From: a virus
IMG/VR virus record: IMGVR_UViG_3300022752_000209
Coordinates: 1-35,034 of that record
Strand: one strand, 5' to 3'
Length of the DNA: 35,034 nucleotides
Shown here piece by piece: positions 2,798 through 35,034 of this stretch; positions within the stretch are counted from its first letter, which is position 1; the number at the start of each line of letters is the position of its first letter. The position numbers were made by a program, and so were the translations under genes. Below the pieces are notes generated by a model. The model searched no databases, was not told where the DNA came from, and worked only from the letters and a program-made list of their open reading frames with translations.

Positions 2798-3181
2798 TCA
2801 CAAAGGTTGCAATGCCTGCCAAGAAACTGTTTCCTCATTCCATGCGTACATCTTTGGAGGATCACCGGTTCCAGAATCTTCTGGCATTGCAACAGGTGCT
2901 TCCCAGTGACATGATGTCTCATTTAGTACCCAACTATTAAATGGTTTCGGAGGAATAAAAGCATCACGCTGTGAATCAAAACTATAACCTATACCGGCAT
3001 AGTTTTTTCTAAAATTAGCATTGTAGCTAGTTTGCTTCCACGTACCACCCAATAGTCTTTCAAGATATGCTGCGCCAATGTGTTCTTTTTCAACACCATT
3101 TGCATCTGCGGTATCTTTGTTATCCACGACTACAACACGCAATACTACATTGTTCTGATCTATTTCTGCAAAATGTGCCAT
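2798..3181 (-). CDS. Conserved marine-phage protein of unknown function
   Basis: This protein has 127 residues and begins MAHFAEIDQNNVVLRVVVVDN. A central stretch (GGTWKQTSYNANFRKNYAGIGY) and a proline-rich segment near residues 77-82 (IPPKPF) match a family I recall as very common near the tail-fibre locus of cyanophages and related marine myophages. No function is established that I know of. The start is supported by an AGAGGT ribosome site. Tryptophan- and aromatic-rich C-terminal motifs (SWVLNE, CHWEAPVA, MYAWNEETVSWQ) are compatible with a small fibre-associated or chaperone-like protein, but this is inference. Confidence 0.75.
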   Translation of the reverse strand: MAHFAEIDQNNVVLRVVVVDNKDTADANGVEKEHIGAAYLERLLGGTWKQTSYNANFRKNYAGIGYSFDSQRDAFIPPKPFNSWVLNETSCHWEAPVAMPEDSGTGDPPKMYAWNEETVSWQALQPL

Positions 3182-3204
3182 TTTTACCTCTAAAAGATAT
3201 TAAA

Positions 3205-3855
3205 TTAATCTAACTCCAGAAGAGTCAAATCGTTTGCTTCCCCCACCGTTCCAACTAAAAATGTATTAAATGATAATGAAATTCTAGTAGATTCGGCAGA
3301 TACTTTTTCAACCATGTGTTCCAAAGAAGAGGGGAAAAGAAAAAGTTGCCCTTTTGTTGCCCCAAACCACCATGATTCACTATTCCAGGTATTCCAATTA
3401 TTTGGAGGCATCTTGATTGTAGGAATATCCCCGTTATAAAAGAAAATTTTATCCTCAATTGTAGATTCAATGTAATAAACACCCGATACAAATGAATTAG
3501 GATGACGATGCTTGTGATGGTACTCACCCTTTTTAGTATAATTAACCCATGATTGAGTTATTCTCAATCCAACTTCGTGTTTAGGATTATATACCTCATG
3601 AAAAAATAAATTCATTTTTATTTCAAGTGCTTTTTTAAAAGCTGCCAATTCTTTATTATTAAGAATTTTATTATCTATACTTGTAGTATTTCCCATATTA
3701 CTACGTTGGGGTTGTTCAAGTAAAAATTTTAATTCTTTTTTACTTAGTTTATAATCTAAACTATAAGATCCAACAGGTGTTGGGAATAAATTGTATATTA
3801 CCGAGGATGATGGTAAATTATTTATTTCTGTTGGTGGTAATAGAATATCATTCAC
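3205..3855 (-). CDS. Putative 2-oxoglutarate/Fe(II)-dependent oxygenase (2OG-FeII_Oxy_5-like)
   Basis: This 216-residue protein carries the pattern of the 2OG-FeII_Oxy_5/TIGR02466 family. The segment SWVNYTKKGEYHHKHRHPN leads into SGVYYI, with candidate metal-binding His116 and His118. The distal half of the double-stranded beta helix, FLFPSSLEHMVEKV, supplies His180, and Arg191 is a candidate 2-oxoglutarate contact. Such enzymes are frequent in marine T4-like phages; their substrates are unknown. It overlaps the preceding small gene by four bases (ATGA), so the two are probably co-translated. It belongs to a different subfamily from the hydroxylase at 9213-9809. A protein substrate in the virion is a guess. 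Confidence 0.8.
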   Translation of the reverse strand: MNDILLPPTEINNLPSSSVIYNLFPTPVGSYSLDYKLSKKELKFLLEQPQRSNMGNTTSIDNKILNNKELAAFKKALEIKMNLFFHEVYNPKHEVGLRITQSWVNYTKKGEYHHKHRHPNSFVSGVYYIESTIEDKIFFYNGDIPTIKMPPNNWNTWNSESWWFGATKGQLFLFPSSLEHMVEKVSAESTRISLSFNTFLVGTVGEANDLTLLELD

Positions 3856-8484: not shown

Positions 8485-9219
8485 TTATTCCTCTTTAATT
8501 TCTTTTCTTTTCTCTCTCAACTCATGTGTGTACACATGTTTTCTAGTTTGTTGCCTAATGTGTATATCATTTAAAATTTTTTGCTCTTTTTTGGTCATCA
8601 CTCTAGGTACAACTTCAGTTTTAAGAGTACTTCGTTTTATTGGTATTACCTGTACTAATGGTGTCCCTGCTTCAACAATATCATCATAATCTGGTAAATG
8701 CCAAACAGCAGGAAAATTGACCTGTTTCATATATTTATCAGTATCAACTAATCCCCCTAAACAAGTAAATCTTTTATCAAAATGATTAACTGGGGGAATA
8801 AACATAGATGACCATCCTGGCGCCGTTTTAATTACCCATGCATTGAGAAACTTAATAGGCATTGAGTTTCCACCTGGCCAAGTATTACCTCCAACTTGCT
8901 CCATACTATGAAATTCTGCTTGTTTTATCATAGGCGTTCCACCTATCTCAGTAAATTTTAAATCTTTACTGGTTCTTATATTAACATCACCTTGTAAAGG
9001 TATAATCCATCCCGCAGTCATCACGTCCATCATTGGTAGGCATTTTTTAGCGGTCATACCTTTAGAATTAAAATGATCTCTACCGTTGTTATACGGTTTT
9101 ATATTACGATACCATTTCGGAATAAACTTAGCAGCAGGTTCTGGAGCAGGTATATTTCCAAATAAATTTTCTTCCACATAGAATTCTATAATGGGATTTT
9201 TATAGAATAACTTCAGCAT
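8485..9219 (-). CDS. DUF6065-like conserved phage protein
   Basis: This 244-residue protein has motifs in the order IPKWYRNI, KKCLPMMDVMTAGWIIPLQGD, PIKFLNAWVIKTAPGWSSMF, PPVNHFD, GLVDTDKYMKQVNFPAVW and GTPLVQVIPIKR. I recognise this order as the DUF6065 family, found in many marine phages and some bacteria. No activity is known to me. The C-terminal 40 residues are highly charged and helical. It overlaps the prolyl-hydroxylase-like gene by seven bases, forming a tight pair. Family members often accompany phage oxygenase genes, which may hint at a shared modification pathway; that is inference. Confidence 0.75.
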   Translation of the reverse strand: MLKLFYKNPIIEFYVEENLFGNIPAPEPAAKFIPKWYRNIKPYNNGRDHFNSKGMTAKKCLPMMDVMTAGWIIPLQGDVNIRTSKDLKFTEIGGTPMIKQAEFHSMEQVGGNTWPGGNSMPIKFLNAWVIKTAPGWSSMFIPPVNHFDKRFTCLGGLVDTDKYMKQVNFPAVWHLPDYDDIVEAGTPLVQVIPIKRSTLKTEVVPRVMTKKEQKILNDIHIRQQTRKHVYTHELREKRKEIKEE

Positions 9220-9809
9220 ATTCTACTCCCAACACACCAACCAACTAGGCTCTTTCTTTCACCCTTAGTTACAGGTGTAACTCTGTGGGGGAAAAAACTT
9301 TTAAAGAAAAGTATCTGACCCTTTTCAAGTTTAAATATTTTAGGTTTAGATACATTACCAGAATAAACTATTTGAAATTCACCACCTTCATATTCCGACG
9401 GTTCACTCAAACACATAGAAAAGCTTAACTTTCTATCCTCAGGTTGAGTACTTAGATACGAATCAAAATGCCAATCGTAATGTTGATGACTTTCTGAATT
9501 ATATTTTGTATATTGTAAGGTTTGCAAGTAATCTAAATCCATCCAAAAAGAGGAATGATTTATAGTAGCGACTAAATCAACTAATTTTTTGTAGATCCAC
9601 TCTGTCTCTTTTTTAAGCGATAACCAAGAAATAGTGCTATCTCTAGTTTCCAAATTAATTTGACTATTACCACTTGAACCTACTCTTGCTGCTTCAAATA
9701 TTTCTCTTTCACATTGATCTTCAATAATATCAATCTCGTCACTGGTAAATAAATTTTCCCATAATACCAAAGGTGGTAATTCTGGGGTAAACAAAGGAAT
9801 TTTGTACAT
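9213..9809 (-). CDS. Prolyl-4-hydroxylase-like (PKHD-type) 2OG-Fe(II) oxygenase
   Basis: This 198-residue protein shows the complete catalytic set of the P4H/PKHD superfamily. HxD is at His114-Phe-Asp116 (YDWHFDSY). The distal His175 is in SFFPHRVTPVTKG, and Arg185 in GERKSLVGW is positioned to bind 2-oxoglutarate. LSFSMCLSEPSEYEGGEF is the typical core strand-turn. The protein is a bare catalytic domain without extensions, as in marine phage homologues. Its start lies two bases after the stop of a gene encoding a Pro-Gly-Asn repeat protein, so that product is an obvious candidate substrate. Family knowledge predicts hydroxylation of a peptide side chain; the proline target is inferred. Confidence 0.85.
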   Translation of the reverse strand: MYKIPLFTPELPPLVLWENLFTSDEIDIIEDQCEREIFEAARVGSSGNSQINLETRDSTISWLSLKKETEWIYKKLVDLVATINHSSFWMDLDYLQTLQYTKYNSESHQHYDWHFDSYLSTQPEDRKLSFSMCLSEPSEYEGGEFQIVYSGNVSKPKIFKLEKGQILFFKSFFPHRVTPVTKGERKSLVGWCVGSRIC

Positions 9810-32982: not shown

Positions 32983-33546
32983 ATGGCAACCTTATTTACT
33001 ACTATTAAATCAGATCCAAAAGAAACTGATAAAGCTATTCAATGGTATAAAAATCAGATTCGTCAACTCGGATCAGTTAATCCCACCAATATTATGCAAG
33101 ATCGTAATCATTTAGTAAATAAAATTATGCCAGGTAAAATGTATTTGTTTTTCTATGATCCAAAGTTGAAAGATAAATTACCCTATTATGATAGATTTCC
33201 ATTAGTTCTTCCGTTTAGAAGAATGTCAGATGGTTTTATAGGATTAAATTTACATTATTTACCATATTTAGCAAGATTTAAATTATTGGGTTACTTAACA
33301 GATTATCTCAATAATGACAAAATGGATAATACAACAAAATTGATGTTTTCATGGAGAATTTTAAATAGTTCTTCTAAATTAGCGCCAATGAATGCATGTG
33401 TAAAACGTTATCTTTTAGATCACGTGGAGTCTAGATTTTTTGAAGTACCCATTAATAATTGGATAACTGCTTCACAGTTGCCTGTAGAAAAATTTATCGG
33501 TGCGGATAAAAATGCCGTATGGAAAGATTCCAGAAAGAAATACTAA
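32983..33546 (+). CDS. Putative DNA end protector protein (gp2-like of marine T4-like phages)
   Basis: This protein has 187 residues. Motifs are MPGKMYLFFYDPKLKDKLPYYDRFPLVLPF, then GFIGLNLHYLPYLAR, TKLMFSWRIL, CVKRYLLDHVESRFFEVP and WITASQLPVEKF. I recall this family from marine T4-like genomes under the label DNA end protector (gp2). It is next to gp4, as gene 2 is in T4, which supports the label. I cannot see direct similarity to T4 gp2 itself, so the role is tentative. Its TAA overlaps the next ATG (TAATG). Confidence 0.55.
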   Translation: MATLFTTIKSDPKETDKAIQWYKNQIRQLGSVNPTNIMQDRNHLVNKIMPGKMYLFFYDPKLKDKLPYYDRFPLVLPFRRMSDGFIGLNLHYLPYLARFKLLGYLTDYLNNDKMDNTTKLMFSWRILNSSSKLAPMNACVKRYLLDHVESRFFEVPINNWITASQLPVEKFIGADKNAVWKDSRKKY

Positions 33547-34148
33547 TGACTACGTTTTCTCTAGATAGATTTAGATCACAAGTTTTATCTGAAGGTTTAG
33601 CAAGAACCAATCGTTTTCAGGTTTTTATTATACCCCCTTTAGCTATGAATTCATACAAGGATAAAGCAACACTCGTTAGTTTGTATTGTGAGGAAACTAA
33701 TTTTCCCCCACTTTCTACTACTGTTAAATCCTACAAACTATTTGGACCCGCTCATCAAAGAGCGGTATCCTCAGAATTTGGAGGAGAAGGCATCTCCATG
33801 ACTTTTCATATTGATAGTAGTATGTATGTTAAGCGTTTCTTTGAGGAATGGATGTATGCGACAGTAGATCCTGAAACATTTTTATTAAATTATCATAAGG
33901 ATTATGCTTCTAATATTCAAATAGATCAATTGGATGAAGAAGATAATATAGTTTATCAATGTGAAATAATAGATGCCTTTCCAAGATCAATTAATCTTCT
34001 ACAATTAAATAATTCTGCACAAAATCAAACTCATCGTTTAACTGTAATGTTTGCTTATAGAAGATGGTATGGTTTTACCGATAGAGAATTAGGTATTCAA
34101 CAAGTAGTCCCCGAAAGAACAAATATTGACAATATTCCACGACAATGA
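33546..34148 (+). CDS. Baseplate tail-tube initiator gp54-like (gp19/gp54 fold)
   Basis: Starting at the ATG coupled to the previous stop (TAATG), this protein has 200 residues. An upstream in-frame ATG at 33519 lies inside the preceding gene and is less likely. The N-terminus (FSLDRFRSQVLSEGLARTNRFQVFI) is typical of the tube-protein family. The strands GISMTFHIDSS, RFFEEWMYATVDPETFLLNYHKDY, CEIIDAFPRSINLLQLN and HRLTVMFAYRRWYGF fit the gp19/gp54 tube fold. Gp48 is already present in the window, and tube gp19 usually sits near the sheath gene. Gp54, which primes tube assembly on the baseplate, is therefore the best guess; it is shorter than T4 gp54 (320). Confidence 0.7.
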   Translation: MTTFSLDRFRSQVLSEGLARTNRFQVFIIPPLAMNSYKDKATLVSLYCEETNFPPLSTTVKSYKLFGPAHQRAVSSEFGGEGISMTFHIDSSMYVKRFFEEWMYATVDPETFLLNYHKDYASNIQIDQLDEEDNIVYQCEIIDAFPRSINLLQLNNSAQNQTHRLTVMFAYRRWYGFTDRELGIQQVVPERTNIDNIPRQ

Positions 34149-34159
34149 GGTAAATAATT

Positions 34160-34855
34160 ATGGCTTTGCCTAAACTTGAAGTACCAACATATGAATTAAA
34201 ACTACCATCAACTAATAAGCTTATTACATACAGACCCTTTCTGGTAAAAGAACACAAAGTACTGTTGACACTACAAGATGCTAATGCTGAAGAAGTATCT
34301 AGAATTATAAAAGAATTGGTTGATGTTTGCACATTTAATAGTCTAAAAATTGCAGATTTGGCTAATTTTGATATTGAATATATTTTTCTTCAACTTAGAT
34401 GTAAATCTGTAGGTGAAACATTAGATTTACTAATTAATTGTGAATGTGGTAATAAGATTGAACATAAGGCAAATCTTTTAAACGCACAGGTTGTCAAAAA
34501 AGATGGTCATTCTAATAAAATTCAATTAACCCAATCCATTGGTATCGAAATGCGATATCCTAGTTTTGATGAAGTATTGAAGGTGTATGAATCAGAAAAT
34601 AAAGAAGATATTATTAAACTTGTTATTAAATGCATCAAGGGTGTTTATAGTAAAGATGATTACTGGGATTCATCCGAACAAACAGAACAAGAACTAATAA
34701 ATTTTGTTAATGATTTTACAAAAGAACAATTTAATAAACTAGAAGAATTTTTTGTAAGTATGCCCAAGCTGGAACAAGTACTTGAGGCAGATTGCAATAA
34801 ATGCGGAAAACATAATGTCGTAAAATTGGAGGGCCTACAAAGTTTTTTCGTCTAA
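34160..34855 (+). CDS. 26: Baseplate hub protein gp26
   Basis: This 231-residue protein (T4 gp26 is 208) begins LPKLEVPTYELKLPSTNKLITYRPFLVKEHKVLL, the typical gp26/T4_baseplate opening. It continues with FNSLKIADLANFDIEYIFLQLRCKSVGE. Two cysteine pairs, Cys94-x-Cys96 and Cys212-x2-Cys215, may bind one zinc. A GAGG site lies 8 bases upstream of the ATG. Gp26 is an assembly factor of the hub. By fold position it resembles the gpG-type chaperones that load the tape measure. Its last codons overlap a slippery sequence that can shift translation into the gp51-like frame. Confidence 0.85.
   Translation: MALPKLEVPTYELKLPSTNKLITYRPFLVKEHKVLLTLQDANAEEVSRIIKELVDVCTFNSLKIADLANFDIEYIFLQLRCKSVGETLDLLINCECGNKIEHKANLLNAQVVKKDGHSNKIQLTQSIGIEMRYPSFDEVLKVYESENKEDIIKLVIKCIKGVYSKDDYWDSSEQTEQELINFVNDFTKEQFNKLEEFFVSMPKLEQVLEADCNKCGKHNVVKLEGLQSFFV
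34828..34855 (+). promoter_or_regulatory. Candidate programmed -1 frameshift site at the gp26 end
   Basis: In gp26 frame the bases 34843-34849 read T TTT TTC, an X_XXY_YYZ slippery heptamer. A GGAGGG element ends at 34833, nine bases before it. This is the geometry of the Shine-Dalgarno stimulator in the dnaX frameshift. The zero-frame TAA follows at 34853-34855. After slipping, the -1 frame is open to the window edge. Confidence 0.65.
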
Positions 34856-35034
34856 GTCTTTCTCAGGATTCGTTGATTAATTATTTTAAAATGAATTTTG
34901 CTTTGATACATCACCATAAGTATTCTTTAACAGAATTGGAAAATATGATGCCCTGGGAAAGAGAAACCTATATTGCATTGTTAATGCAGTATATACAAGA
35001 GGAAAACGAAAAACTTAGAATGCAAAAAAAGAAT
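34849..35034 (+). CDS. gp51-like hub assembly factor, probably expressed as a gp26 fusion (partial)
   Basis: The -1 frame relative to gp26 is open from 34816 to the window end. From the slip site it reads RLSLSQDSLINYFKMNFAL, then HHHKYSLTELENMMPWERETY and a charged helix (QYIQEENEKLRMQ). The YSLTELENMxPWER pattern matches short gp51-like hub assembly proteins that I recall next to gp26 in marine T4-like phages. The first ATG is at 34891 and has no ribosome site. An AGGA precedes a TTG at 34873, so separate initiation there is an alternative. The conserved-looking residues before the ATG favour a fusion product. The C-terminus lies outside the window. Confidence 0.65.

Follow-up and report, generated by a model that had tools for sequence, protein, structure and literature searches.

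Gene 26 of T4-like phages probably encodes a short and a long form of a tail assembly chaperone through −1 ribosomal frameshifting

Gene 26 in the analyzed stretch of DNA, an IMG/VR contig of 35,034 bases (hereafter the window), is in all likelihood the gene of a tail or baseplate-hub assembly chaperone which is made in two forms through −1 slippage. The comparison with its relatives makes −1 frameshifting at the end of gp26 almost certain. The gene lies at the very end of the window and the gp51-like part runs past it. The features of the junction, all on the + strand, are as follows.

33519..34148, +, upstream neighbor, tail tube protein (gp19-like); matches to phrog_45 (1.3e-34) and phrog_3629 (5.8e-32)
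34160..34855, +, gene 26, short form of 231 aa (TAC-N-like); matches to PF12322 T4_baseplate (E 1.6e-58) and phrog_150 (5.3e-64)
34828..34833, +, GGAGGG, candidate Shine-Dalgarno (SD)-like stimulator 9 nt upstream of the heptamer; SD-like pairing above the synonymous-codon null
34843..34849, +, slippery heptamer T_TTT_TTC; kept in 312 of 321 loci, with silent positions fixed
34849..35034, +, gp51-like C-terminal domain as a −1-frame extension, truncated at the contig end; matches to phrog_634 and phrog_150, pN/pS 0.26
34853..34855, +, 0-frame stop TAA, end of the short form; read from the sequence
34873..34875, +, TTG, considered as an internal start of the −1 frame and rejected; absent in most relatives
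34891..34893, +, ATG, considered as an internal start of the −1 frame and rejected; without SD-like sequence before it and variable in position

The last codons of gene 26 are GAG GGC CTA CAA AGT TTT TTC GTC TAA. In the −1 frame no stop occurs between 34813 and the contig end (35034); this frame encodes FF followed by RLSLSQDSLINYFKMNFALIHHHKYSLTELENMMPWERETYIALLMQYIQEENEKLRMQKKN, and its first ATG is at 34891. The earlier note, which had proposed the frameshift from the window alone, described the heptamer in the gp26 frame, GGAGGG nine bases upstream, the open −1 frame and an ATG at 34891 lacking a ribosome site. All of these are found in the sequence as it described them, including the absence of an SD-like sequence before the ATG. 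The −1 frame of the nearest relative, at 84% identity, ends 194 nt past the gp26 stop. The −1-frame peptide of the window matches phrog_634, annotated as "baseplate hub assembly catalyst" (5e-24), as well as positions 235-277 of phrog_150, which are the C-terminal end of that family; the T4-type gp51 matches phrog_150 across its whole length. In-frame T_TTT_TTY occurs three times in the 10,645 codon positions of the window, one of them being the gene 26 junction, and therefore the heptamer proves little when a single window is considered. A second in-frame T_TTT_TTC is located in the gene at 9213-9809 (−), 28 codons before the end of that gene. A terminator-like hairpin within gene 26 (34541-34559, +) is probably a chance occurrence (one found, 0.3 expected).

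Homologues were taken from named phages as well as from viral contigs and genome bins. This yielded 323 loci, each having one gp26, and the stop is readable in 321 of them. The sequence N_TTT_TTN is present in frame at the gp26 end in 312 of the 321 loci, nearly always as T_TTT_TTC or T_TTT_TTT, so that the conservation of the heptamer expected by the earlier note is borne out. In most cases (267/312) a single codon lies between slip site and stop, and the −1 frame is open for 158-209 nt in every uncut locus of the 312. Among the named phages, the slip site is found in P-SSM2, P-SSM4, S-PM2, Bellamy, HTVC008M, Melnitz-2 and phiM12, and also in PG216 (KVP40-like), nt-1, Aeh1, Ahp1, LPCS28 and YB07. 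The nine loci without N_TTT_TTN comprise six Ackermannviridae-like phages and the loci L106, L203 and L327, the last being masked by N. The gp26 frame is broken at the junction in L203 and further upstream in L106, apparently by indels, which may be either homopolymer assembly errors or real variants.

The silent positions of the site are fixed as well. The first Phe codon is always TTT (background of 70-74%), and the codon preceding it nearly always ends in T (background of 63-66%). Given the codon use of the individual genes, the probability of T at both silent positions throughout 47 representatives below 50% identity is ~10^-21, a naive figure which ignores shared ancestry and refers to a site located by its TTT. 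The conservation of N_TTT_TTN across the relatives is far beyond chance. A chance heptamer, or a sequencing or assembly frameshift within one fused gene, would be conceivable from one window alone; its probability is practically nil, and it is refuted by the recurrence of the same junction in >300 loci from many assemblies and many cultured phage genomes.

The codons which follow the slip site and precede any possible start were analyzed in the 23 of the 33 window-group sequences which have no ATG, GTG or TTG before codon 17 of the −1 frame. Their pN/pS is 0.26 in the −1 frame versus 0.99 in both other frames; like all group statistics given here, this value ignores phylogeny and counts related sequences as independent. 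The other groups agree with the window group in this respect, and the −1 frame before the ATG is thus conserved, a check that the earlier note had proposed. Since the 0-frame has already ended past the slip site, these codons can be reached in the 23 sequences only by shifting. Selection on the protein encoded before any start means that internal initiation is not a sufficient explanation.

Nevertheless, a separate gp51 CDS is annotated in the database records of P-SSM2, S-PM2, HTVC008M, phiM12 and others, in line with the reading that gp51 is a separate short protein, initiated at an internal TTG or ATG of the −1 frame and coupled to the gp26 stop. In part of the cyanophages an ATG is found shortly past the gp26 stop, at a distance of 5 nt in some, and a separate short gp51 could also be initiated there. 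As a general explanation this is very improbable: besides the 23 of 33 sequences described above, whose startless codons are still under −1-frame selection, the position of the start varies and that of the heptamer does not, and in T4 gp51 the domain is joined to a PF12322 domain. For instance, in 26 of the 33 window-group relatives the first ATG is five codons further on than 34891. No TTG or ATG start with its own ribosome site, which would have spoken against the earlier note, is conserved among the relatives. TTG 34873 and ATG 34891 of the window were rejected as initiation sites, as they are not conserved, have no SD-like sequence and lie downstream of the region under coding selection.

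The upstream element was evaluated as pairing to the anti-SD within the seven codons upstream of the site. The pairing exceeds that of synonymous-codon resamplings in all representatives taken together (z −12.5) and in each group (z −3.7 in the window group, −8.4 in the P-SSM2 group, −8.7 in the S-PM2 group and −4.9 in the HTVC group). Six other places in the gene show neutral pairing or pairing weaker than the null, the latter being the case in the controls at shifts 45 and 60. On this evidence the SD-like element upstream of the heptamer is under selection. The conservation of GGAGG proposed by the earlier note stands in part, i.e., SD-like pairing is stronger than expected, but only 66 of the 312 loci have GGAGG itself, and many cyanophages add a stem where the window's clade has none.

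Downstream of the site, RNA folding exceeds the synonymous null strongly in the P-SSM2 group (Z −25) and in the S-PM2 group (Z −11.5), and it weakens further downstream. Among the controls, folding also exceeds the null at codons 30-44 (Z −6.0) and at codons 5-19, a stretch shared with the stem. In P-SSM2, for instance, the stem AGTATGGCTCA-tgaagatct-TGAGTCATACT begins five bases past the heptamer, and different stems are located at the same place in other lineages. One common stem for all cyanophages was considered and rejected, the P-SSM2 register fitting only part of its own group (mean of 6.6 of 11 pairs). Rfam gave no match. In the window's group there is no excess structure beyond the synonymous null (Z +0.8, for pseudoknot-free folding), and therefore the signal of the window would consist of the slip site and the SD-like element and would not be stem-stimulated. 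T_TTT_TTC in the window has the X_XXY_YYZ form of a slippery heptamer, with no stem found 5-9 nt downstream of it.

The selection on the SD-like element and on the cyanophage RNA stem, both of which are signs of ribosomal slippage, also bears on the possibility that RNA polymerase slips on the T6 run and produces mRNAs with an altered number of U, from which the long form would be read. Six consecutive T can in principle make the polymerase slip and a contribution is conceivable, but the run stays at six T, mostly C-ended, and shows no lengthening. We consider this even less probable than internal initiation, and ribosomal −1 slippage is retained as the preferred reading.

The Ackermannviridae-like phages differ in the site itself. 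In the ACKERMANNVIRIDAE variant gp26 ends in GAR ATT TTC ATY TAA with no canonical heptamer; Kevin has GTT TTC ATC TAA, and Kuja, K441 and SUMAE have CTT TTY. An open −1 frame with a related domain is still kept after gp26 (L087, L093, L094, L099, L088, L089 and L343-L360). This downstream domain is hypothetical or unannotated in the records seen. To judge from the codons, only the step of the second tRNA, tRNA-Phe, could re-pair well at such a site. There is about an even chance that a single homologous frameshift site has swapped its stimulators between clades: an SD-like element in the window's clade, an SD-like element together with a strong lineage-specific stem in cyanophages, a non-canonical [A/G/C]TT TT[C/T] in the Ackermannviridae-like phages, and gene duplication in T4 and its near relatives.

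The two-gene arrangement of T4 is informative for the meaning of the two forms. In a search of 22 phages and contigs, two PF12322 copies were found in T4 and a single one in each of the other 21, all of which have the layout of gp26 with a −1 frame. Two copies are also present in RB51, RB43, phiP4-3, Aeromonas phage 31, KARL-1 and FL15. In the T4-type RB51, gp26 (1.9e-63) and gp51 (3.5e-54) each match the whole of PF12322. By their sequences, T4 gp26 and gp51 are thus paralogues. Aligned with the others, T4 gp51 continues without a change of frame past the position at which they shift, and from that position on the −1-frame domain aligns with the C-terminal tails of gp51 (hhalign P 2e-12, probability 97.7%). 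The −1-frame domain is thus homologous to the tail of T4 gp51. Since the two T4 genes are paralogous and gp51 crosses the shift point in frame, gp26 would correspond to the short form and gp26-51 to the long form. The proposal of the earlier note, that gp26 and gp51 are made as short and long forms like lambda gpG and gpGT, gains support from these paralogous genes.

In the phylogenetic tree, all gp26 and gp51 sequences of the two-gene phages are placed on one side of a branch (98/97), and their gp51 sequences form one clade (100/99); monophyly of the T4-type gp26 sequences has an AU p of 0.21. The frameshift is present outside Straboviridae and in the straboviruses PG216/KVP40, nt-1, Aeh1 and LPCS28, an indication that it is ancestral. 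The simplest history which we infer starts from an ancestral frameshift, which gave way a single time to a gene duplication in the lineage leading to T4. The genes gp51 and gp26 are still in tandem on one strand in RB43 (1501-2244 and 2237-2794 of locus L204), whereas in T4 they are divergent (2803-3429 and 3480-4229 of L091); this difference suggests a tandem duplication followed by an inversion. T4 gp51 is needed for assembly and is absent from the final particle, and the evidence on T4 gp26 in the hub is contradictory (review PMC3004832).

Both defining parts of the T4 gp26/gp51 family are found in the predicted proteins, i.e., the PF12322 domain in gp26 and the gp51 C-terminal domain in the long form. 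The arrangement is also that of a chaperone pair, in that the short gene has a slippery site close to its end and the open −1 frame is conserved. Tail assembly chaperone families are highly diverged. AlphaFold models reached a pLDDT of 90.2 for a T4-type gp51 and 87.7 for gp26 of the window, the extra domain being modeled as three helices. The gp51 and gp26 models gave no match among solved structures at E ≤ 0.001, those of tail assembly chaperones included, and neither did the sequence profile search of PDB. Against predicted viral proteins, the gp51 model matched gp26 proteins and the "tape measure chaperone" of Citrobacter phage Moon (E 1.7e-3). As the models resemble no solved structure, membership in the tail assembly chaperones follows from the arrangement and the two-form logic and not from the fold. 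Directly upstream of gene 26 in the window is the tail tube gene. On the other side the window breaks off within gp51; two genes downstream, the relatives have a large gene whose tape-measure matches are all weak. A small holin-like gene (phrog_3427, 4e-6 to 6e-8) lies between the gp51 domain and this large gene, for instance at 3890-4309 of L010 and 3901-4473 of L003.

According to the proposed mechanism, most ribosomes would stop at TAA 34853 and release the short form of 231 residues. A minority, aided by the SD-like GGAGGG upstream, would slip back one base on U_UUU_UUC, the two tRNA-Phe moving simultaneously from UUU-UUC to UUU-UUU, where both would re-pair perfectly with UUU. The slipped ribosomes would enter the −1 frame and produce a minor long form of ~295 residues with the gp51 domain. 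By analogy to lambda gpG/gpGT, a role in coating or binding the tape measure protein may fall to the shared part, and tail tube or hub subunits may be recruited by the rare extra domain. The occurrence of slippage, its rate and the binding roles of the forms are all deduced from sequence comparison and this analogy.

Frameshifting in E. coli dnaX similarly uses an SD-like stimulator ~10 nt upstream, but dnaX has A_AAA_AAG and a strong stem, in contrast to the stemless clade of the window. In lambda, gpG and gpGT arise through a single −1 frameshift shortly before the short gene ends, and the virion contains neither of them (Atkins et al. 2016, PMC5009743). The likeness to gene 26 is one of arrangement, and the window differs in having U_UUU_UUC with an SD-like element and a contractile T4-type tail. 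Likewise, Vandenendeviridae/Andersonviridae (phage Adele, PMC12846349) resemble it in arrangement, with a conserved −1 frame and the poly-T GTTTTT at the end of the chaperone gene.

The tail assembly chaperones of T4-like phages have, by its title, been identified by Vladimirov, Gautam & Davidson (Virology 2022;566:9-15). As summarized in the PRFect preprint (PMC10274946), some T4-like phages do without frameshifting and have one gene for the short form and another, fused one for the long form, which as far as this summary goes fits gp26 and gp51 here; the Adele paper (PMC12846349) cites the same study for poly-T slip sites in T4-like TAC-N genes. From the summary and this citation, the core of the frameshift-chaperone idea has probably already been published, and a two-form T4-like tail chaperone is probably not new in principle. 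The title of that study stresses a non-frameshift mechanism, whereas the marine, Schizotequatrovirus, Emdodecavirus and Menderavirus lineages examined here keep the frameshift signal. In the open literature on gp26/gp51 frameshifting, where the 2022 article is represented through its citations, no paper describing it directly was found. What the present analysis adds is the breadth, the selection test of the −1 frame, the stimulators and their turnover between clades, the count of one versus two copies, and the non-canonical site of Ackermannviridae.

These results correct the annotation of gp26/gp51 in many non-T4 members of the T4 supergroup, including abundant viruses of marine bacteria, in which gp51 is most likely the end of a longer protein and not a separate gene of 40-60 residues. 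They also offer a natural series of variants of one frameshift site, with a stem, without a stem or replaced by gene duplication, in which the way that frameshift signals arise and vanish may be studied.
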